Shown here in pieces: positions 33,222 to 61,600 of a stretch of DNA of 64,000 bases (positions within the stretch are counted from its first letter, which is position 1; each line of letters starts with the position of its first letter). The stretch covers positions 25,463,608 to 25,527,607 of the forward strand of contig NC_088300.1 of the NCBI RefSeq assembly GCF_032854445.1, given 5' to 3'. The translations under genes were made by a program, and so were the position numbers. This DNA is from Liolophura sinensis (lineage: Eukaryota; Mollusca; Polyplacophora; Chitonida; Chitonidae). The notes beneath the pieces were generated by a model. It was not told the origin of the DNA. It saw only the letters and a list, made by a program, of their open reading frames with translations, and searched no databases.

Positions 33222-34390
33222 TACATTATATATTATCACTATCTGCATCAAGGAGAAACTGTGTTTTTGGTCAGAAAGCTAGAGGGATACCAATTATGCG
33301 AATAATCACTGATCTGATATCTTTAACATTATTGAAGTGATTAAATACAAGAATATGTTTTAGCTGTTCTTGGTTTTAAATCTTTATTATCTGAACACTA
33401 AATGTCTGAAATAATGTACATCCGTTATGTACTGAATAATTGCCATTTATAAACTATGCATCAAAGTCCAATTCAAAGGTCATTATATACACATATGGTG
33501 GGGAATATCACAGTCAAACTGCTAAAATCTAATACAGTGTCAGGATCTAATCAAGACTAATTCTAACAAGTCTAACACGTGAATGCCAATAATTCTTAAG
33601 ACAACCAACTTAACCAACTCTGCCATTACCCAGACCACTTTGTAATAATTACTGTAATTCTTCAACCTTTTCGCATGTTTGCAACATGTTTTTTAAGCAT
33701 ATTCTGTAGGCATTACTGTGTTGACTGATAAAATTATGCTTTTTGTGAAGCCCTGAAACTTGCCAATCCAGCCAATTTAGTTTTATCTCTAAAATGAAAT
33801 TAAAAATGTGCATAAATTGCACCGAAAGTTGCCCTTTCATATGCGAAAAGGTTGAGGAATTAAGAGTAAATAACTTCAAAGGTGGTATTTTCTTTGCCAA
33901 TGGGTTTATTACACATTAGGCCATGGACCAACGCTAAAAGATACTAACAATTCAGACATATAAATCCTCCCATAGAAGTACTAACCGATTTACACACTCT
34001 GTGATGACTGTAACAGAAACCTTATAATCTTTATATCACATAAATGAATACTGCCTTTACAATCTATCAAACTCTCAATCAGATTTTTATCAGACAGTTT
34101 AATCAAGTTAATAGCTTTTTACAGCCTTTTTTTGTCTTTTGTCTTCACCAATACTGTTTCCATTTGTAAAATTTCTAACTCCCTGATTCCATTTACGCTA
34201 CACATTTAATCAGAATCATCTCCAGCTGTTATAATTTACAGCAGGTCTCTAGAAAACCAAAATGAATATACAAAACATGCCACTACAAATTCCAGTTATT
34301 AATTCACATGATGTCTCAGTTTGCTATAATATGGAAACACAAAATCACAATTCACCACAGACAATGTGATTCTTAAGCGTAAACACAAAT
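33217..34390. other. Gene-free AT-rich stretch
   Basis: I see no supported exon, repeat array or regulatory signal here. The frame at 33649-33900 on the minus strand has no recognisable features. Confidence 0.5.
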
Positions 34391-35165
34391 ATCTTTTCGT
34401 ACATATTTCTCGGAAAGCAAAATCTTACAGCCAAAGAAAATGGGTGGCACAATCTTACAGCCAAGGAAACCAATCCTACATCCAGGCAAGGCACAATCCT
34501 CCAGCCAAAGAAAACAATCATGCAGCCAAGGATGCCACAATCCTATAGCAAGGGAAACACAACCCTACAGCCAGGGAGGATGGTGTGGCGTAATCATATA
34601 GCCAAGGAAACCACAATCCTACATCTAGGGATGGCACAATCCTACAGCCAAGGAAACCAATCCTACAGCCAAGGGTGGCACAATCCTACAGTCAATGAAA
34701 CCAAACCTACATCCACGGGTGGCACAATCAGTCAAGATGGTACAAAAAATATAGCCAAGGAAAACAATCCTACAGCCAAGGAAACCAATCCTACAGCCAG
34801 GGGGTGGCACAATCCTACAGCCAGGGGTGATACAATCCTACAGGCAATGAAAACCAATCCTACAGTCAAGGAAACCAATCCCACATCCAGGGGTGGCACA
34901 ATCCTACAGTCAAGGTGGCAAAATCCTATAGTCAAGGAAACCAACCCTACAGCCACGGATGGCACATTCCTACAGCAAGGGAAACACAACCCTTTTGTTA
35001 GGGGTGACATAATCCTACAGCCAAGGAAAGCACAATCCTACAGCCAAGGAAAGCACAATCCTACAGCCTGGATGGTTGGGGTGACATAATCCTACAGCCC
35101 CTTGAATGCACAATTGTACAGCCAGGATGGCACAATCCTACAGCCAAGGAAGGCACAATGTTTTT
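34391..35165. repeat. Minisatellite, about 18-24-bp unit (cacaatcctacagccaagga)
   Basis: Thirty or more irregular units built from caatcctacagccaaggaaa and caatcctacagccaggggtggca. Unit length varies between about 18 and 27 bp because two spacer types are mixed. Open frames on both strands here are products of the repeat. Confidence 0.95.
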
Positions 35166-45102: not shown

Positions 45103-46694
45103 CTTTGCAGATGAAAATGTTATGAGACACCATTTTGCAGGACATAAAACCAAAATCACACACTTAAATGTGATGTAATTTGGCTAGATGACAATATAGC
45201 ACAAAAAACTTTGTGGTCCCAAAAAGCAGTGAAGTTGGAGATTCAAAAATTGTATATTTACATTTTTTATGTAAAAATGTTTTACAGTTTTTAAATATAT
45301 TTCACGATTTTTGTCTGCTTCAGTATTGATAAAACAGCATTATTTTATACACAGCTTTTTACCCCAGCCTTTCTTGTATACTGTTATGAGTATCATTCTG
45401 ATGTCATATGACTAAAATATATCTTGCCCACTCATTTTCGTTTTTCGTAACAATGTGCAAGAAAGGCAGTATGGCCGACTGATTACTTTGTAAATGAAAT
45501 GTCAATTTATTCCACAACTCAAGCAGTATTGAATGTGCTACACACAGAAATGATTTCCCAAAAAACTGTTGCTACTGTAAAGAGTAAAACACGTGTTCTA
45601 AGGATGATTTTATAACTGATGACAGATTTTAGAAAGATTTTTATGTCCGTGTATTGTACAGATATAAAGCTTTATTCTTTACAAAACCTACCAGTAATCT
45701 GGGTTTAGTTTGATTTACATTTAAGTCCGTCCTTTTCATATACTTACATCCCATTTACTGATGTAGCCTATGATTGCCTTTATTATTTGATTTAATTCAC
45801 ATGATCCTGTAGCATGTGTGCTTTTCACTTGACAGTTTCCTTGTGAAATTCCCAGATCAAGCTTACGACTGAAACATTGAGTTGTTTTTGTTTGTACATA
45901 AAATTCCATGCTATGGATTTATTTTAATAATTGTACAAATGGTAAAATATACCCCATGTAATTGGAAAAAAGAGAAGACATTTGTTTTGTGTTCATATTT
46001 TGTCACTTGTATTTTGTATTAAAAACACCATTCAAGAACATACTGATCAGAGACACAATTGATGCATTCTTGGAACATGCACATAGGACAGGGACTCCTA
46101 TGTGGACGGTTCAAACAGGGACATTTGGATAAAGCATGCTCTCACTGCAGCTGATGCATACCTGACAACTGAGGTCAGAACTCAAATCCAGCTCTTGCCT
46201 GTTTAAGTGTGGCGCTTCAAGTCAGATGCTTTTTAAGTACGTGGCAAACAGGGTGACTTACCCTGGGCTGCAGCCTGGTTTCCTCCACTAGAAAAAAAGG
46301 ACATGTCAGGTACAGCATTAAAACCCCACTCAAATATATCAATGTAAGTGTCACTGGTGGGCATGAATCAACAGCCTTTATTAACACAACAAGTTTGAAT
46401 CCATGGACTGGTTTGCCTTTATACATGTATGAGGGTAACAGGTCCAGGTACTGGCTGGAGTATGACAAGGCCAACATTGTTTCCTGGGACCACATTTTCA
46501 TGGAATTTCACCACTCCTTTTCCTAAAGGAAATCTGCCCACAAAATCTTGGTGAGTCTAGCAGGCTTTTGCCTAATAAGAACAGGAAGCACAGAGCACAA
46601 TATTTAAATTGCTGTACTTGTGTTGATCCCACGGGAGAATGAGTATTCAGGTTGCACACTAATGTGGATTCCAATATGTCCATAATGTCTGTTG
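45103..46694. other. 3' flanks of two convergent genes
   Basis: 3' UTR of the 333-residue gene (+) and of the YTH gene (-). ATTAAA near 46018 is a possible plus-strand poly(A) signal. The minus-strand AATAAA at 46377-46382 is a possible signal for the YTH gene, about 310 nt after its stop. 46160-46335 contains a degenerate SINE-like phrase (cagcctggtttcctccacta). No further gene was seen. Confidence 0.4.
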
Positions 46695-49600
46695 TTATGT
46701 CTGTTCTGGAGGGTATGACAGGAAGTTATCATAGCGCAGCTTCAGTAACCAAGCCTCTGTCTGTCTCCTCATCTCATCTGAGGGTTCCTCCACATCACAT
46801 TTGTTAGCTTCTATAACTTCCAGTAACCTGTAAAGTTGTGAATTGTAGCTGATTTATTTACTTATTCATTTTTTTATTTGACATGTAACATCATACTCAA
46901 CTATTTTCCCCTTGTACCAATGTCCATCAATTTTATGGGTGGTACAAAGAGCCTTAGAGGGGAAAACCACAGTTCTTTGGCAATTTACTGACCAACTTTC
47001 CAACGTGATGTGCACATATGGACATCATACTGGTAAAAAACAACTGATCTTTAGCCAATGTTAGACAGTGTGAAAGGCCTCACAAAGGCGTCACCGACCG
47101 CCTACTGTCACCCAGGCTCCATGTGAGAATGAGCCAATCTACAAATTCCCTCTTCAAGGCCAACATTGATCTGACACCTTGTGAGACCTGGATTGTATTT
47201 TACAGGGAATACACACACGAACACAAATGCCTTGGTGAGCTTGACCAACAAAAACATCAATTTGTATTTCCTACATCAGACCAAATTGCTAAAGACAGGC
47301 TGAGTCATTGGTATTACTGCAATTTTAGAACTATTACAAATAACGATGCTTTTATTAAAAGGCTAATCCTGTAATCCTGGCGAAGAATCTAAATCTCCAA
47401 TTCCTGAAGTTTCAACTGAATCTTAGACATCAACACATAAAGATTCAAAACTATCTGGCCGCCATAAGACTTAGAAAAATGAAATATAGGATATCAGTTG
47501 CAGGTTACACAAGTACACACAGACATCCATGATTTCAGAAATATGAGAAATTTTACATTCCAAGGGCACTTTGCCAGTTACAAAATTTTGTACAATATAC
47601 AAGTAATCATACCCTGCAGAGACAGGTTTTTTTATTATCCCACATCAGACAGATTACTTTGCTTTTCATTGGACAGCAACATGTACATTCCCATATCCTG
47701 TAGCCATTGTCATGTCTGCTGATTAGGTTATCTCCCTTTGTTCACGTGATAATGGTCACATAACTGAAATAATTCGCCCATATATCAATCTTCTGTGCTG
47801 AATTGATGCGTCTTTAGAAGGATAAATTCATTTACATGATTACTCGTTAACAGGATGCAGAAATAGATGGTGTCAGTAACCCTCATATTGGGTGAGGCGT
47901 TAGAGGGTTGCTGACACCCATATATTTCCATATCTTATCATTCAGTAACCAAGCAACTACTAGAGCACACTGCTGAGTAAGTGTGATGGATAGCTCTACA
48001 TGTGCTTAGCAATATAGGCGTGTAGAAAAGGACTACATACTCTTCTATCAGTTGCCTGGCCTCCAGACCAGTTATCTCCCCTCTCCTGACTTTCAGTAAC
48101 TGTTGTCTTTCCAAGCTCTCCTCCTCTCTGTATACACACAGCCGCTTAAGGGTCACATCCCTGTTGCCAAACCAGAGCATGATTTAAAACCATTTCTTAC
48201 ATAGTCAACATACAAACAACGAAACATAAACTGCAAAAAATAGTAAAGAAATCCCCCAAACCACAGAAGTGAAATCAGAGAGTTTATATCCAAAATGATA
48301 TATTTGATATGGTTTTAGAACTTAATCTGAGGAGCCACATTAAAAATCTGTGCACAAAATTTCATCCAAACCAGACAATATCTGATGCAGTTATTGCACA
48401 GAAAACTACATCAAATCAAATTCAAGGAAATTATTAAATTTTATGCAAAGGCTCTGGTTGATCTGAGGTTAAAACACAATATACCTGAACACAAAATGTT
48501 ATCAAAATCAGACAATATTTGAAATAGTTATTGCACAGAAACCCAGGTGGGACAGACGGACAGACAGGTTTATATTAATATCTCTGAAGTATGAACTGAA
48601 AAAAGTATACAAATCCCTTTCTATGTGAATGAAAAAATTCTACTCTAAAATGCAAAATTTGTCAAAGGTATGAAAAAAAAATTATTGTTTTTTTATAATT
48701 AGTGATACATGCTATACAGAAGATTAGTGCTTTGGGCAGTAGATAGAAGCAGAATACCTACCTTGCATTTTGTAACAAACGCAAAATGATGTATACAAGC
48801 TTGGAGAGTTTTGGAGTGAGAAGATTGTGTGGACTTTGATCCTTCATCCACTTTTCAAACTGTTTCAGACCTTTTGATCCCAGGCCATCCCTTAGGTATT
48901 TCTCCAGGCATAAACTGTAAATGTGGAAAGTCATACTACATGCATTAAGGTACAGCATGTAATATGATGTAAACATATTTGCTATGTTGACATAAATTTG
49001 GTGTTAATCAGTGGAGATGTACCTGTGCTATGTATTTTGTAGCTTGGGTCCAGATATCATTTTTTTTTCTATTTCTCCCTTGAAAAGGTAAATTGATGTG
49101 ACTAACCGTATAATGAGAAACCTGTCCCTTAAAAACTCACCTGTGTAGAAACAAGTCTCGATGAGCCAAGAATTGCCTCCACCTGTCACTGCAATGTGTG
49201 ATGGAGGATGGATGTAAAAACAAGGTCTCCACACATCTTGGGTCTCCCTGAGTCAGCAGTTCACAATAACGATGAACTTCATGTACTGTGTAGTCATAAC
49301 TCTCTCCTTCTCTGTTCTACATGGAAATGAAAGACTGATGTAAAAACATGGTTTCTACACATCTGGGTGTCTCCCTGAGTCAGCAGTTCACAATAATCAA
49401 GCACTGTTTTATTATCAGAGAAAGAGAATGGTTGAGCAGCTGGATATGTCACAGAACTAATTAAAACAATCATAAGAAAAAATGAAAAGCAAATAAAAAT
49501 TATGAAAAAGAATTTTAAAAGCTGTACCTAGCATACCTTTATTGTGTGTTTAGGAGGTTCCAGTCCCAGCACAGCTTTGGTATCCGCTTGATACACAATA

Positions 49601-51092
49601 AACATATCCATATCACTGTCAGCTCTGTGTAGGTTATACCTGTAATATACAAGCAGAATTTAGCACTGCAGGTTTGCAAATGTACATAAATACAGCGATT
49701 CACAGAAGTCCAACTTCTTACTACCACACCAGGTATTAAAATTTCATTATGTTTTGCTACTTTTTTTTTCAAAGAGATAGTCAGTTCTATATGTTAATAC
49801 TTCAGTTCACAAGTGTTCTAACTTCGATTTTTTTTTCAGTTTTTTAAGTATTCTTGTAGTAAGAATGGATGTGCTAGTACATGAATCCCTGGAATATTGC
49901 CAGGTATGTGATGTTCAATGGATAATCATCAAGTTACCATACATGAATACAAATTCTACTACTACTGTCATTTTTACACGACATGACTGATGACTGATGA
50001 CTTGTGCATGTAGATGGTCAGACCTCTCTGGCCCGATCAGCTAAATAAATGTTCTTGCCACAACCGATAGTCCACTGACAGCGGCTGCATGTCTATTAAA
50101 TTTGTTTGTAAACATGGTAATAGAGAGAAGGTTTACTCAAGGTATGTGTACTTCATTTTTCTCCATCCATAAACCTGACTACTGCTGCATAAATGAAATA
50201 CTCTTGAGTAGACCTACACATATAGTGTCAAAACATCAATAAATAATGTGTACCGAGATACAGCTTATGTATGCCTTGGGTATAGTATCCATACTATATC
50301 CCAGCATACACCAGCTTTAACAAAGCTTTATTTCCTTCTGAAATACAATTAGTGAATGTCAGCATATTTGTGAAGATGACATGCATGTAGACTCTACCTT
50401 TGACTTCCAAACGGACAAGCCAAAAGGACTTTACCCAGATCTCTTTCTACTTTTTCAACAAGGCTTCTCCATGTCGACTGAAAATCAAGGTGTTCTTTAA
50501 CACCTTTCAAAAATGGCCCTGGTTGTTTACTAAGCTGTGCCGCTTCTTTTTCTTTCTGTTTCTCACTCAAATGATTGTAATGTTCTTCAATCATGATCCA
50601 AATTTTCTCACCAACATCTTCCGGCAATTCTTGTAAATTTCTACATTTATTGACGGGCTGTCCATCAAAACAACAAAGTTCAGATGTTGTCTGTGAAGAC
50701 AAGCATCTTTCCCCAAATTTCCTGATGAAAACCGTCCGCCAGCGAACTCGAAACCGGTGCCAGATTACTGAGTTTGAGCTTTTGTCAGTGTCACTGTCTG
50801 GCTTCATATCAACGGCAGTCCGACTGACAAGATCATCATGGCTCGCATTTTCCGTACCGTCCAAATTACTAATTACTTCACCAGGAGCACTAATCATCTC
50901 ACAGACCCCGTGCCACCCATGGCAGTTGTTGACACTGAACACAAGTATAACTGTCCCCTCCCCGAGGGCCTTAGTAAGTGTTTCCCGAGGGTTAGGGAAT
51001 GAGTCTCGATCTTTACAAGCCCACACGCCGGACTCCACACACTGGCGAAGAGATGCTATTGTAGCGCATTTACACACGAAATAACGCACCAT
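46695..51092 (-). CDS. YTH-domain protein fused to a polymerase-beta-type (RlaP-like) nucleotidyltransferase
   Basis: Six exons: 51092-50398, 49639-49537, 49316-49141, 48914-48762, 48160-48041 and 46827-46695; 459 residues with continuous phase. Residues 1-172 fit a YTH fold: RYFVCKCATIASLRQCVESG, VWAC (Trp24), GTVILVFSVNNCHGWHGVCEM, SVIWHRFRVRW (Trp111, Trp118), QPVNKCRNLQELPEDVGEKI. Trp24 and Trp118 sit where YTHDC1 has its m6A-cage tryptophans. Residues 173-228 are a charged helical linker. From 229 a nucleotidyltransferase begins: GSQRYNLHRADSDMDMFIVY, with G-S and D-x-D (Asp241, Asp243). Then come YDYTVHEVHRYCELL (Asp274, candidate third metal ligand) and QGDPRCVETLFLHPSSI, followed by helices with RRGEITGLEARQLIEE. 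That order fits the RlaP (COG3541/PF10127) family as I remember it, which is mainly bacterial and phage. The combination suggests a reader-guided RNA-end-modifying enzyme; that role is an inference. Confidence 0.8.
46890..47170 (-). mobile_element. Dispersed repeat, family C, in the YTH-gene last intron
   Basis: Phrases catactcaactattttcccc, ttggcaatttactgaccaac and gaaaggcctcacaaaggcgt match the 37715-37965 copy in order. The orientation is inferred from the tail (gccatactcaag-type reversed at 46895). Confidence 0.55.
48340..48580. repeat. Degenerate duplicated dispersed repeat
   Basis: Two adjacent copies share acaaaatttcatccaaaccagacaatatctgat / acaaaatgttatcaaaatcagacaatatttgaa-type text followed by agttattgcacagaaa. 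The second ends in gggacagacggacagacagg. Such phrases are common in marine invertebrate interspersed repeats. It lies in a YTH-gene intron. Confidence 0.55.
49333..49398 (-). pseudogene. Partial duplicate of YTH-gene exon 3 in the adjacent intron
   Basis: The phrase at 49334-49397 (gatgtaaaaacatggtttct, then gggtgtctccctgagtcagc, then agttcacaataa) repeats the coding segment at 49211-49270 with a few changes. It lies just upstream, in transcript orientation, of the exon it copies, and has no clean splice borders of its own. Confidence 0.8.
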
Positions 51093-52629: not shown

Positions 52630-55600
52630 CTATAGGAAGTCATCTATGTTCCCGAATGGTACAGATTCGGACGTATCCCTGTATGTGTGAGCCGGTCGTG
52701 GATCTGTGAATGGCAGGTCCGAAAGAGAACGGTACAATGTTCTGTCAGAGGCGTTCCGTTCAAATCCTATAAGTGATGGTCGATCGTCCTCGTGGAAAAC
52801 CAGTCTGATTTCATATGGTGACGGGGGAGAAGTTGAATGATACGGAATTGAAGGATGGTGATGCGAACCAGCTGATCGAGCAGCCTGGTTTGATTGTTGC
52901 ACACTGGTAGCTTGATTTGGAGCGCGCCCAGCTATCTCGTTGAGAGAATGATATGAACTACCCCAAGAAACTTGTAGCATGCCACTAGACGAAGCGCCCT
53001 GTGATTCTAGAGCTGCCTGTGAAGCGGAAGAAGCAACTGTAGAACCACTGTTTTGCTTACGCTTGGCGCTTTTCTCTTTGCGCTTGGCGCTTTGCTCTTC
53101 ACGCTGGGCGCTTTTCCCTTTGGGCCTGTCGCTTTGCTCTTCATGCCTAGCACTTGGCTCTTTACGCTTGTCGCTTTGCTCTCCATGCCTGGCACTTTGC
53201 TCTCCATGCTTGGCGCTTTTCTCTTTGTGCCTGTCGCTTTGCTCTTCACGCATGGCGCTTTTCTCTTTATGCGTGGCCCTTTGCTCTCCATGCTTAGCGT
53301 TTTGCTCTTTACGCCTGTCGCTTTGCTCTTCATGCTTAGTTCTTTTCTCTTTGTACCTGTCGCTTTGGTCTTTACGCTTGTCGCTTTGCTCTTCATCCTT
53401 GATGCTTTTCTCTTCACGCTTGGGGCTTTCCTCATTAAACTTTACGCTTTTGTTCGTCTCGCTCCCTGGCGGTTTTGGAGGAATCGGAGAAACGTCTGAT
53501 GCGCGTACCCGTCCAGCTGGGGTTAAGCTAGCAGATTCCTCCTGGGAATGTTGCCCAGATTTGGAACGCTCTGATGTTGGTGACTGTGACATTGGTGGTA
53601 GTATTGGTGGTGGTACCGATGTTTTATGTGACGGTTGTCCTTCTGAATGTTTACCAGATGAAGGGCTGGACTTTTCTGCTTCATGAATGGCGCTCTGCTC
53701 TATAGGCTTGTCGCTTTGCAATATACGCCTGTCGCTTTGCCCTTTATGCTTGGGGCTCTGCTCTTTACGTTTGTCGCTTTCCTCTTTATCCTTGATGCTT
53801 TTCTCTCCACGCTTGGGGCTTTCCTCATTAAACTTTACGCTTTTGCTCGTCTTAGTCCCTGGTGGTTTTGGAGGAATCGGAGAAACGTCTGATGCGCGTA
53901 CCCGTCCAGCCGGGGTTAAGCTAGCAGATTCCTCCTGGGAACGTTGCCCAGATTTGGGACGCTCTGATGTTGGTGACGGTGACATAGGTGGTGGTGGTAG
54001 TGGTACCGATGTTTTATGTGACGGTTGTCCTTCTGAATGTTTACCAGATGAAGGGCTGGACTTTTCTGCTTCATGATTGGCGCTCTCCTCTATAGGATTG
54101 TCGCATTGCAATTTACGCCTGTCACTTTGCTCTTCATCCTTGACGCTTTTTTCTTCACGCTTGGGGCTTTCCTCATTAAGCTTTACGCTTTTGCTTGTCT
54201 TAGTCCCTAGCGGTTTTGGAGGAACCGGAGAAACGTCTGATGCGCGTACCCGTCCAGCTGGGGTTAAGCTAGCAGATTCCTCCTGGGAACGTTGCCCAGA
54301 TTTGGAACGCTCTGATGTTGGTGACGGTGACATAGGTGGTGGTGGTAGTGGTACCAATGTTTTATGTGACGGTTGTCCTTCTGAATGTTTACCAGATGAA
54401 GGGCTGGACTTTTCTGCTTCATGATTGGCGCTCTGCTCTATAGGATTGTCGCTTTGCAATTTACGCCTGTCACTTTGCTCTTCATCCTTGACGCTTTTTT
54501 CTTCACGCTTGGGGCTTTCCTCATTAAGCTTTACGCTTTTGCTCGTCTTAGTCCCTGGCGGTTTTGGAGGAGCCGGAGTAACGTCTGATGCACGCACCCG
54601 TCCAGCTGGGGTTAAGCTAGCAGATTCCTCTTGGGAACGTTGCCCAGATTTGGGACGCTCTGATGTTGGTAATGGTGATATTGGTGGTGGTATTGGTGGT
54701 GGTACCGATGTTTTATATGACGGTTGTCCTTCTGAATGTTTACCAGATGAAGGGCTGGACTTTTCTGCTTCATGATTGGCGCTCTGCTCTATAGGCTTGT
54801 CGCTTTGCAATATACGCCTGTCGCTTTGCCCTTTACGCTTGGCGCTCTGCTCTTTACGTTTGTCGCTTAGCTCTTTATCCTTGATGCTTTTCTCTTCACG
54901 CTTGGGGCTTTCCTCATTAAACTTTACGCTTTTGCTCGTCTTAGTCTCTGGCGGTTTTGGAGGAATCGGAGAAACGTCTGATGCGCGTACCCGTCCAGCT
55001 GGGGTTAAGCTAGCAGATTCCTCCTGGGAACGTTGCCCAGATTTGGGACGCTCTGATGTTGGTGACGGTGACATAGGTGGTGGTGGTAGTGGTACCGATG
55101 TTTTATGTGACGGTTGTCCTTCTGAATGTTTAACAGATGAAGGGCTGGACTTTTCTGCTTCATGAATGGTGCTCTGCTCTATAGGATTGTCGCATTGCAA
55201 TTTACGCCTGTCACTTTGCTCTTCTTCCTTGACGCTTTTATCTTCACGCTTGGGGCTTTCCTCATTAAGCTTAAGCTTTTGCTCGTCTTAGTCCCTGGCG
55301 GTTTTGGAGGAGCCGGAGTAACGTCTGATGCACGCACCCGTCCAGCTGGGGTTAAGCTAGCAGATTCCTCTTGGGAACGTTGCCCAGATTTGGGACGCTC
55401 TGATGTTGGTGATGGCGATATTGGTGGTGGTGTTGGTGGTGGTACCGATGTTTTATGTGACGGTTGTCCTTCTGAATGTTTACCAGATGAAGGGCTGGAC
55501 TTTTCTGCTTCATGATTGGCGCTCTGCTCTATAGGCTTGTCGCTTTGCAATTGACGCCTGTCGCTTTGCTTTTCATGCTTGGCGCTCTGCTCTTTACGTT

Positions 55601-58600
55601 TGTCGCTTTCCTCTTTATCCTTGATGCTTTTCTCTTCACGCTTGGGGCTTTCCTCATTAAACTTTACGCCTTTGCTCGTCTTACTCCCTGGCGGTTTTGG
55701 AGGAATCGGAGAAACGTCTGATACGCGTACCTGTCCAGCTGGAGTTAAGCTAGCAGATTCCTCCTGGGAACGTTGCCCAGATTTGGAACGCTCTGATATT
55801 GGTGACGGTGACATAGTTGGTGGTGGTAGTGGTACCGATGTTTTATGTGACGGTTGTCCTTCTGAATGTTTACCAGATGAAGGGCTGGACTTTTCTGCTT
55901 CATGAATGGCGCTCTGCTCTATAGGATTGTCGCTTTGCAATATACGCCTGTCGCTTTGCCCTTTATGCTTGGCGCTCTGCTCTTTACGTTTGTCGCTTAG
56001 CTCTTCATCCTTGACGCTTTTCTCTCCACGCTTGGGGCTTTCCTCATTAAGCTTTACGCTTTTGCTCGTCTTAGTCCCTGGCGGTTTTGGAGGAGCCGGA
56101 GAAACGTCTGGTGCAAGCACCCGTCCAGCTGGGGTTAAGCTAGCAGATTCCTCCTGGGAACGTTGCCCAGATTTGGGACGCTCTGATGTTGGTGATGGCA
56201 ATATTGGTGGTGGTATTGGTGGTGGTACCGATGTTTTATGTGACGGTTGTCCTTCTGAATGTTTACCAGATGAAGGGCTGGACTTTTCTGCTTCATGATT
56301 GGCGCTCTGCTCTATAGGCTTGTCGCTTTGCAATTGACGCCTGTCGCTTTGCTTTTCATGCTTGGCGCTCTGCTCTTTACGTTTGTCGCTTTCCTCTTTA
56401 TCCTTGATGCTTTTCTCTTCACGCTTGGGGCTTTCCTCATTAAACTTTACGCCTTTGCTCGTCTTACTCCCTGGCGGTTTTGGAGGAATCGGAGAAACGT
56501 CTGATACGCGTACCTGTCCAGCTGGAGTTAAGCTAGCAGATTCCTCCTGGGAACGTTGCCCAGATTTGGAACGCTCTGATATTGGTGACGGTGACATAGT
56601 TGGTGGTGGTAGTGGTACCGATGTTTTATGTGACGGTTGTCCTTCTGAATGTTTACCAGATGAAGGGCTAGACTTTTCTGCTTCATGAATGGCGCTCTGC
56701 TCTATAGGATTGTCGCTTTGCAATATACGCCTGTCGCTTTGCCCTTTATGCTTGGCGCTCTGCTCTTTACGTTTGTCGCTTAGCTCTTCATCCTTGACGC
56801 TTTTCTCTCCACGCTTGGGGCTTTCCTCATTAAGCTTTACGCTTTTGCTCGTCTTAGTCCCTGGCGGTTTTGGAGGAGCCGGAGAAACGTCTGATGCAAG
56901 CACCCGTCCAGCTGGGGTTAAGCTAGCAGATTCCTCCTGGGAACGTTGCCCAGATTTGGGACGCTCTGATGTTGGTGATGGCAATATTGGTGGTGGTATT
57001 GGTGGTGGTACCGATGTTTTATGTGACGGTTGTCCTTCTGAATGTTTACCAGATGAAGGGCTGGACTTTTCTGCTTTATGATTGGCGCTCTCCTCTATAG
57101 GCTTGTCGCTTTGCAATTTACGCCTGTCGCTTTCCTTTTCATGCTTGGTGCTCTGCTCTTTACGTTTGTCGCTTTGCTCTTCATCCTTGATGCTTTTCTC
57201 TTCACGCTTGGGGCTTTCCTCATTAAACTTTACGCCTTTGCTCGTCTTAGTCCCTGGTGGTTTTGGAGGAGCCGGAGAAACGTCTGATGCGCGTACCCGT
57301 CCAGCTGGGGTTAAGCTAGCAGATTCCTCCTGGGAACGTTGCCCAGATTTGGGACGCTCTGGCGTTGGTGATGGTGATATTGGTGGTGGTGGTACCGATG
57401 TTTTATGTGACGGTTGTCCTTTTGAATGTTTACCAGATGAAGGGCTGGACTTTTCTGCTTCATGATTGGCGCTCTCCTCTATAGGATTGTCGCATTGCAA
57501 TATACGCCTGTCACTTTGCTCTTCATCCTTGACGCTTTTATCTTCACGCTTGGGGCTTTCCTCATTAAGCTTTAGGCTTTTGCTCGTCTTAGTCCCTGGT
57601 GGTTTTGGAGGAGCCGGAGAAACGTCTGATGCGCGTACCCGTCCAGCTGGGGTTAAGCTGGCAGATTTCTCCTGGGAACGTTGCCCAGATTTGGAACGCT
57701 CTGATGTTGGTGATGGTGATGGTGGAGGTGGTGGTGGTGGTGGTGGTACCGATGTTTTATGTGACGGTTGTCCTTCTGAATGTTTACCAGATGAAGGGCT
57801 GGACTTTTCTGATTTTTGCGTTTTTGAAGTAATTGCAGGTGGGTTTGGTTTTGACCTTGGTTTTGACCCTTTCTTTGCAGCCTCGGAAGCTGCTGAATTG
57901 TTTGTATTGTTTGTAAATCTCCTCACAAATGAAGATGAGGAAGAAAAATCTTTATCGTCAGACACCGTAAGTGTGTCATTGTCATCTTTGTCCCGTTTTT
58001 CCTGGTTTGTCTGTGAGGAATGCGGAGAAATGTTGTTATGATCTGGTTTTACAGCTTTGTTTGTCATCCCAGAGACAGCTTTACGAAGTTGTGGATCATC
58101 GACTGACGACGAACTTGCAGATGATGAACCTGAGACACCATTACCGCTTGACATTTCATCATTGAATAGGGTTTCTAATGATTTCTTTTCATCCTGCACG
58201 TATAGCCCAGGTTCCGGCCGGGACATGTGTCTAACAGGCTCTTGCTGAACAAACGAAGACGTCACTTCTAAAGGAGGCTTGTCAGGAGAATGTGCACTGC
58301 CGTCATCACTGGGCTCAGACTCGTTTACTTGCGCATTCCTGAATTGAGACGGAATCATAAATTGCCCCTTTGACCTTCGATCACTAGACACTTTCATTTT
58401 TAGCCCATGCGATTTTACCAAAACATCTTTAGGACCGGGTACACCTTCACGTGAGTCATAACTAATCGCAGAATAAAAACTTTGGCCAGACCAAGATATG
58501 GCTGAAAAGAAGCTATCGTGACGAGACGGAATTATTCTACTGCTTGTTGAACTAGAGTAACTTTTAGGCTGAGCAAGGAAGTCTTTACTTGCAGCCAGAC

Positions 58601-61600
58601 CCGATGACGTTTTCTTCGATGTGGTATCCATCATGCTGAGTGTACTTTCTTTGCTTGTAGCCATATCTGATGACGTTTTCTTTGATGTGATTTCCATCAT
58701 GCTGGGTACGCTTTCCAGGCTATGACTGCGTGAGGACACTGTTGATGTAGTTGCTGAAGGCACAACAGACAATGACGAATCAGAATTATCCAGAGGCTCA
58801 GATGAAGAGTGTTTGCGGGCAATCCTAGATGTCTTAGGTTGTCTTGATACGACACCCGCCGACAACATGGACACGTCACTATCTGACCCCTTGGATTTCG
58901 TTGTTTTTTTTATCCTCGCTTGAGGTGGACGACTCGGAGCTACTTGTATCTGATAACGTGCTTCCACTTGAACCAGTTGAAGAGCTCGCCTGGCTGGATG
59001 ATGTAGTTCTGATATTGACAAATGCCTTGGAAGAAAACCTAACGGAGTGGCTTTCTTCATTCCGATTTTTTCCCCTTTTCTTCAGGCTCATGTCTGAAGA
59101 CTCGGTGTCTGAACTACTGTTTGATGTAGTCCCCAAATCTGACGAAGAGCTGTCTGAAGTAACGTCCGAAGACGACTCTGAGTCTAAGGAGCTGTAAGAA
59201 AGAACTTTCTGCTGAATCGGCCGATTTCTATGCCTTATGACCGAGATTGTGATGAATACGATGAAATCGACGATGAAGCTAATGAGCACGTAGGTGACAT
59301 TCACCCAGATATCTGCAATTAGAGAATCAGAGGAAAATAATACATAATGACTGTGCATTAAAAAATACTCAATTCACTACAACGATCATAAATATTATGG
59401 TAACGTCAAAACATTCTTGTTCTACATCAGAACTGCATAACAGAATTATTTCGCATAAAAATTTGCTACGTCAGTGTAGACCTACTATAGTATTATTCTT
59501 CAGCTATGATATTCCATGGATCGTTTACCCTGAACGTATCCCTGAAATCGACATGTAGGTATTCAATGAGAATTGTTACTGAGTAACCAATCAGATATAT
59601 GATCTGGGTTTGAGCTGTTCTGACAATGGTTCAACAGCATTTGCATAAATATCTCTACGAAGCAAGTTAGATGTTATGTTAACAACCCATCCAGCACGGA
59701 ATCAAACGAAATACAACGAAATGTAATTTAACACATATGGGTTTATGGGAAAAGGCTACTCATTAAACAGTAACGAGGCCAGTTTATTTTTTATTGCTTA
59801 ACGCGTGCTTACCATCTCGATCTACTGTGCCAGTCACTGAAAATAAGAAAATACCAGCATTAGTATTTTGTGCATATTACATATACGGTGTGTACAAAAC
59901 AACATACACTGAATCCAGAGAACGTGTAACGCTAAACCATGTGTACAGAATGCAGGTAACGATCATTCCAGATAAGTCAACACTGCTTTCGTCCTCAATC
60001 ACAAGCTCATTGTCTGTATAAAACAAAGATATACTTGGATCATTTAAAAAATCAAACTGAATGAAGTACTGTACAATATTATAATACTATGCAAAATGCC
60101 TCATAATTTACGATTGGTCCACATTACAAAAAAGATCCAAAAACAAAAAAAAATTGATGTGCACTATGGTACAGAAAGCTTCAGGAGAGAGTACGTACTA
60201 AATTTCACAAAACGATAATACATCCAAGAGCTTCTTTGAACTGGTGCGCGTTCAGATGAGAGAGAAACAGATACCTGTCAGATTAAATCCTGCCTTCTTC
60301 TTGCCGTGGTACCAGCAATAGTACGTTCCTGTATCATCCGGTTTCAGATGCTTGAAGTGGAGTGCGTGTGTCATGTCGACTTCAACCCTTCCTTTTGTAT
60401 GCCTATGAACCTCTAATGCAGACATGTACTTGGATCCTTTGGCCCAGGCCACAGGAGTATCGATATGAGCACTGTGCATAGACAAAAACATTTTATCACT
60501 TATATAAGTGTCTATACGAGTGAAATATCACAACTGATGTTCTCTGTACAACATCACATTTATCATGTGACCTTTGGGATAGCGTAACACAGTCCTTTGG
60601 CCCGTTTCTTATTTTCATATAATAATAAATAATTTGGCCAGTCAAGGTTTCAGACCGCTAATGTGTAAATGGTCTACAAATATTGATAAAGTTATTGCTA
60701 ATTCCGTTTTCGAACGAGATAATAGCTATGGTGGCTCACATGTGATCATAAAGGGCTACCTGCGTTTTTATTTATTTGTTTGAAGATGGCTTTATTAAAT
60801 AATGGCAACAGTATTTCTGTCATATCACGACCGTGCCTCCTTGTGGCAGGCCGGGCCCAATATCGCCACATGTACAGCGCGGCCTCACAAGAACGCCATG
60901 CCAACACCAGACACAACATCCCACCCAGTCACACAATAGGCCTACTGACACCGCGTCTACCAGTCTACCGGCCTATTCCTCTTACTCTGAGCGAGAAGCA
61001 AGGTAGTGCAAAGATTACTAATGTTTAAATCTTACGTAATACTCGATTTGAGATTGAGCCTCCGACTACCGCTTATGAAAAGAATGTGTACCTCTGCGTC
61101 TACTGATATACGACATCATCGTCAGGCGTGAGACAACGCAATACATATATTCTGACGCCATGCGTGACGACAGTCAAATTTTCTTCGAATACTGTTCAAT
61201 TAAATAACACAATTTACCACAGAAATAAATATATCAGAAAGGTGGATGCTCCAGAAGACATGATTTAACTTCACATCAACAGTTAAGATAAATTCGGCAT
61301 TTCCTATATTGACTGAAAATATTGACTCAGAGTGCTCGGTACACTTACCCTGGACAGTGCATCAGCAACTCTTGGCCTACCTCTTTTTCCACAGTTTCAT
61401 GATAAACTGTAAAAGTGAAAAAAGTTAATAACTGTTACACTAAGGTAAGTTTAGACATGTATCGGGAATTGCAAATACACTTATGACACAGATGAAAGTC
61501 AGGGTAGTGGCATCATTCTAGTTGCTGATGTTAACATACGGCAATATATAGCGGCAACATACAAGTCAAGACCACATTCATCAAGGGGCCTCCGTGGCCA

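Follow-up and report, generated by a model that had tools for sequence, protein, structure and literature searches.

The YTH fold serves other proteins as a reader of methylated RNA, and nucleotidyltransferases of the RlaP type are otherwise known from the RNA-repair systems of bacteria and phages. The predicted role of RlaP is to put back nucleotides that RNA has lost on cleavage, ahead of ligation, and its distribution in jumbo phages follows that of RNA ligases (PMC7824862). The partners of YTH domains in the fusions described in the literature that we searched are DCD, the zinc fingers of CPSF30, extended Tudor, McrB, and CoCoNuT, and none of these fusions includes a nucleotidyltransferase (PMC7641849, PMC11090510). 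The CoCoNuT type IV restriction systems come close in that they also pair a YTH-like domain with enzymes that act on RNA, in the context of conflict, but they are prokaryotic and use nucleases (RNases) and a GTPase where the protein described here has a nucleotidyltransferase (PMC11090510).

We analyzed a gene in which a YTH domain is followed by an RlaP nucleotidyltransferase. It lies in a window of 64,000 nucleotides (NC_088300.1, positions 25,463,608 to 25,527,607; contig C6 in our numbering) of the 609 Mb genome of the mollusc Liolophura sinensis. Splicing of the minus strand gave an ATG, 459 codons, and a TAA over six exons, with GT..AG boundaries at five of five introns, and reproduced the coordinates of the initial annotation (46695-51092) exactly. 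The positions of the exons and associated features are collected in the table.

Features of the YTH-RlaP gene (positions in the window)
Feature	Position	Strand	Content
Exon 1 (695 nt)	50398..51092	-	ATG, YTH domain in full (residues 3-166), linker, start of RlaP to GS motif (218-231)
YTH domain	50595..51086	-	YTH profile 51.3 bits, E 3.4e-11; candidate cage residues Trp24 and Trp111
Exon 2	49537..49639	-	remaining nucleotidyltransferase motif, ...RYNLHRADSDMDMFIVY (Asp241, Asp243)
Exon 3	49141..49316	-	third acidic residue Asp274, His278/Glu279, QGDPRCVETLF segment
Exon 4	48762..48914	-	Gln343, Lys363, and Arg370 (invariant-type) in the helical C-terminal part of RlaP
Exon 5	48041..48160	-	C-terminal helical part of RlaP, Gly403
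Exon 6	46695..46827	-	end of RlaP domain, stop codon TAA
Candidate poly(A) signal	46377..46382	-	AATAAA, 312 nt past the stop

Exon 1 runs in one frame through the whole YTH domain into the first strand of the nucleotidyltransferase and its GS motif (KVLLACPFGSQR). It ends at the splice donor GTAGAG at 50397, and exon 2 goes on with YNLHRADSDMD; the first 12 columns of RlaP, up to the GS motif, thus fall within exon 1, in phase with exon 2. None of 5000 first-order Markov simulations with the composition of exon 1 stayed open over 695 nt, and an RlaP profile made from 32 prokaryotic and phage sequences aligns with residues 221-450 across all five junctions (87.9 bits). The join between the two domains sits inside exon 1 and is free of stop codons, which rules out a gene model with exon 1 on its own; we rejected that model, and the assignment of exon 1 to the same gene in the initial annotation stands. 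It is extremely unlikely that the fusion is an artefact assembled from two transcripts, one for each domain, since the stop-free exon 1 by itself holds the YTH domain and the RlaP columns that lead in phase into exon 2. We consider it near certain that the fusion is real.

The gene is single-copy: when the genome was searched with the whole protein, the sole other match (E 3.4) was at chance level. Bacterial contamination is very unlikely because the gene is located within a long contig among other animal-type genes, such as a GPCR of the rhodopsin type and an exon of an aspartyl protease, and we rejected it also on account of the introns of the gene and its intron-bearing neighbours. Several other features of the window and the assembly were observed. 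Intron 2 contains a decayed tandem copy of part of exon 3 (49327-49405 versus 49201-49278; offset 126-127 bp, 80-89% identical) that reads LTQGDTQMCRNHVF and is shifted in frame. Upstream on the same strand (52630-59081, minus), two very long repeat-rich frames of 885 and 1300 aa consist of Ser/Pro/Lys-rich units and have no Pfam match; a 239-aa open frame on the plus strand (34370-35086) consists of short degenerate QSYSQGWHNPTA-like repeats and also has no Pfam match. Elsewhere in the assembly, mitochondrial COI occurs seven times, about 15.5 kb apart, on a single contig (C99; L013-L018 and L020), an array that is probably an assembly-made concatemer of the mitochondrial genome; on this contig TGA within COI is read as Trp, and the gene order is ND2, COI, COII, ATP6, in agreement with an invertebrate.

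Both domains were identified in the one protein by hmmscan against Pfam: YTH (PF04146) at residues 3-166 (E 9.3e-13, 48.5 bits, profile positions 2-132 of 135; curated cut-off 22.1 bits) and RlaP (PF10127) at residues 218-438 (E 2.1e-13, 51 bits, profile positions 16-242 of 249; curated cut-off 23 bits). Each bit score is about twice its cut-off, which bears out the family assignments of the initial annotation, and PHROG nucleotidyltransferase family 388 matched the animal protein with an E value of 7e-21.

Comparison with 38 non-redundant bacterial and phage relatives showed that the animal protein keeps the residues of the pol-beta core, namely G229 (38/38), S230 (37/38), D241, and D243 (both 38/38), together with S240, H278, E279, P292, E296, R319, and Q343. 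It also keeps D274, in a column that holds 35 Asp and 3 Glu, and, in the C-terminal helical region, K363 (36/38) and R370 (38/38). The GS...DSDMD core, Asp274, and the QGDPRCVETLF segment, all singled out initially, occur in the protein and line up with columns conserved in RlaP. Some family-typical positions are changed (for example, the Asn of "GNP" is Asp291). Because every key residue is kept, the animal RlaP domain looks, as far as sequence can tell, active as an enzyme. The profiles, the splicing, and the conservation together uphold the original proposal of a YTH-RlaP fusion with an intact catalytic core in an animal nuclear gene.

Pattern search worked with a three-row alignment, an eight-row one being too diverse, and the relatives that it recovered come from actinobacteria and phages, with about 25-28% identity over their length. 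Bacterial and phage RlaP (PF10127, PHROG 388) resembles the animal protein in the whole catalytic domain, the motif residues, and the C-terminal helical part. The animal gene differs by its introns, its nuclear location, its N-terminal YTH domain, the Asp291 in the GNP position, and the lack of a neighbouring RNA ligase gene; in the case of the best annotated-phage homologue, from Gordonia phage DatBoi, an RNA ligase follows two genes on. None of 167 prokaryote and phage RlaP loci encodes a YTH domain in the surrounding DNA that was covered (0/167). Viral contigs searched with the whole protein, the YTH alignment, and the animal's own YTHDF yielded no relatives, a sequence search of the PDB found no RlaP chain, and a search of the animal's own genome with the PF10127 profile gave no match, probably since single exons are too short.

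A genome-wide YTH search recovered the position of the gene independently (51.3 bits, E 3.4e-11). Genes for YTHDF and for YTHDC1-like and YTHDC2-like proteins sit elsewhere in the genome (contigs C3, C7, and C8), and we rejected the identification of the fusion with any of these types, given its RlaP C-terminal end and their own separate loci. In three MAFFT modes, Trp24 aligns clearly with the first cage tryptophan (W377 of YTHDC1) and Trp111 falls at the second (W428 of YTHDC1), with a deletion of 6-7 residues behind it (cage residues as given in PMC6112328). The initial annotation had taken Trp24 and Trp118 as the cage pair. The first of these holds; Trp118 aligns with the conserved strand tryptophan of "F-x-V-x-W", outside the cage, and Trp111 is the likelier partner. 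The third residue of the cage, a hydrophobic one (L439, W470, or Y237), is missing, as its position lies within the deletion after Trp111. In an alignment by eye to YTHDC1, N363 corresponds to Ala10 and N367 to Ser14. Ahead of Trp111 lies an acidic stretch of about 32 inserted residues (about 70-101; window positions about 50790-50885). A model of exon 1 alone (AlphaFold, AF2) was too poor to use (pLDDT 38) and was set aside.

The loss of the third cage residue weakens the claim that the domain reads m6A and leaves the match to the YTH family unaffected. With this residue missing and the two base-contact residues changed, m6A reading by the animal domain is no more than a possibility. The fusion shares membership of the YTH family above cut-off, and Trp24 (with Trp111 as the candidate second residue) at the cage positions, with YTHDF, YTHDC1, YTHDC2, Pho92/Mrb1, and CPSF30-L. 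It differs from these readers in its incomplete cage, its altered base contacts, and its long insertion, and also in its partner, which is a catalytic nucleotidyltransferase, whereas theirs are helicase, zinc-finger, or disordered regions. The same features are compatible with a YTH domain that is a plain RNA- or protein-binding module, so that the substrates would be unmodified RNA ends. There is a precedent in Mmi1, whose YTH domain has Ala at N367 and does not bind m6A (PMC6112328). However, both of the cage tryptophans, which are absolutely conserved in YTH domains, can be aligned, and the m6A binder Pho92/Mrb1 of yeast forms its pocket without asparagines of the YTHDC1 type at these positions, as judged by alignment (PMC6112328). 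We regard a plain binding module, which would be compatible with any of the catalytic activities considered below, as a serious possibility that nevertheless falls clearly short of an even chance.

For the catalytic domain, structural comparison was carried out with a model of a phage RlaP relative rather than of the animal protein (pLDDT 94.8, with the C-terminal helical bundle visible). Among solved structures, the closest was that of HalB, which belongs to the Hailong defence against phages (Foldseek E 2.7e-5, 12% identity, Z 9.8, with an rmsd of 4.3 A across 171 residues), at a level where, in helical folds, Z below about 13 can reflect a common arrangement. The deposited HalB protein is a stand-alone nucleotidyltransferase of about 220 residues, and its solved structures include an oligodeoxyadenylate complex. 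The next neighbours were the aminoglycoside adenylyltransferases ANT(4') and AadA. On the basis of this model, the neighbours fit template-free nucleotide transfer in general. In BFVD, the RlaP fold also matched predicted giant-virus proteins and baculovirus HE65 proteins, and these predicted structures suggest that nucleotidyltransferases of the RlaP type are more widely spread among eukaryotic viruses.

The reading that we tentatively prefer, while judging it somewhat less than probable, is that the RlaP domain extends or repairs the 3' ends of RNA selected by the YTH domain, and that a cellular ligase then seals them. The N-terminal YTH domain would hold the RNA, probably through m6A or a related modified base. 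The RlaP domain, with Asp241, Asp243, and Asp274, would then add one or a few nucleotides, template-free, to the RNA 3'-OH, a reaction that we infer from the family and from the active site as seen in the sequence. A cellular RNA ligase, possibly RtcB or RLIG1, would seal the restored end. The protein would thus provide an animal version of the phage and bacterial scheme in which a lost nucleotide is restored before ligation, with the substrate chosen by a reader domain.

This interpretation is supported by the two significant domain matches in one frame, joined inside one exon, and by the retention of all the near-invariant catalytic-type RlaP residues together with the PHROG match. It is also supported by the location of the DatBoi homologue near an RNA ligase, by the predicted restoring function of RlaP (PMC7824862), and by the alignment of Trp24 and Trp111 with the conserved cage positions. 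Genes for RtcB and for the 5'-3' RNA ligase RLIG1 are present in the animal's genome, which adds further support; in human cells, RLIG1 has been linked to keeping RNA intact during oxidative stress (PMC9931718). An Rnl-type ligase (PF09414) was not seen in the genome search, which does not prove its absence. Against RNA-end repair, the activity of RlaP is itself a prediction in the literature that we searched, the pocket of the YTH domain appears from its sequence to be altered as described above, with Mmi1 as precedent (PMC6112328), and the solved fold nearest to the model is that of HalB, which is not a repair enzyme. The connection to RNA ligases is limited to co-occurrence in the same genome, and there is no evident reason for steering repair to methylated RNA. 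The more specific proposition that the YTH domain directly targets nucleotide addition to RNA ends, as repair or tagging guided by a methyl mark, seems to us conceivable but rather doubtful.

The same active site would suffice for terminal tagging, in which the YTH domain picks m6A-marked mRNA or viral RNA and the nucleotidyltransferase adds short tails, of U or A for example, that lead to decay or stability, much as a TENT or TUTase joined to a reader would. YTH proteins typically direct the fate of RNA, and there is a weak similarity to the palm of MTPAP-like poly(A) polymerases (15.3 bits, below the Pfam cut-off of 27). However, no TENT, TUTase, or poly(A) polymerase profile in Pfam scored above its cut-off in the protein, the catalytic module is RlaP and not TENT over its full length, and the structures of GLD-2, TUTase, and poly(A) polymerase match the phage-relative model at the shared palm only and with low probability. 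We therefore consider tagging unlikely, though worth keeping in view.

Immune signalling, in which foreign or modified RNA triggers synthesis of a free oligonucleotide or cyclic nucleotide as in HalB, cGAS-like receptors, and OAS, is improbable: HalB is the closest solved structure, including its oligodeoxyadenylate complex, but that match is distant for the reasons given above, and no cGAS or OAS family appears among the Pfam matches up to E 10. Transfer of AMP to a protein or small molecule in the style of MntA or the aminoglycoside adenylyltransferases, with YTH merely as an RNA sensor, would agree with the position of ANT(4') and AadA as the next structural neighbours and with a trace of similarity to the MntA model, below cut-off. 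It is improbable in view of the absence of MntA or ANT family matches above cut-off and the conservation of RlaP over its full length, including residues common across RlaP.

Each domain of the fusion belongs to a known family, and the new element is their combination. The initial annotation knew of no described protein that joins the two, and the literature that we searched, which does not extend to the founding RlaP paper (Burroughs and Aravind, 2016), likewise holds no description of the pairing. A prior mention of the fusion is therefore possible and, as the genome comparison comprised one animal genome, so is its wide conservation. The fusion protein may represent an animal RNA-marking or RNA-mending enzyme that has so far gone unstudied. 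If RNA-end repair is indeed its function, it would be the first enzyme described, so far as we have found, to unite a methyl-RNA reader fold with an RNA-end nucleotidyltransferase. The RNA-repair kit of animals (RtcB and RLIG1) would then gain a 3'-end restoring step, which in the literature searched is predicted for phages and bacteria only, and whether RNA marks direct RNA repair would become a question within reach of tests on one purified protein.
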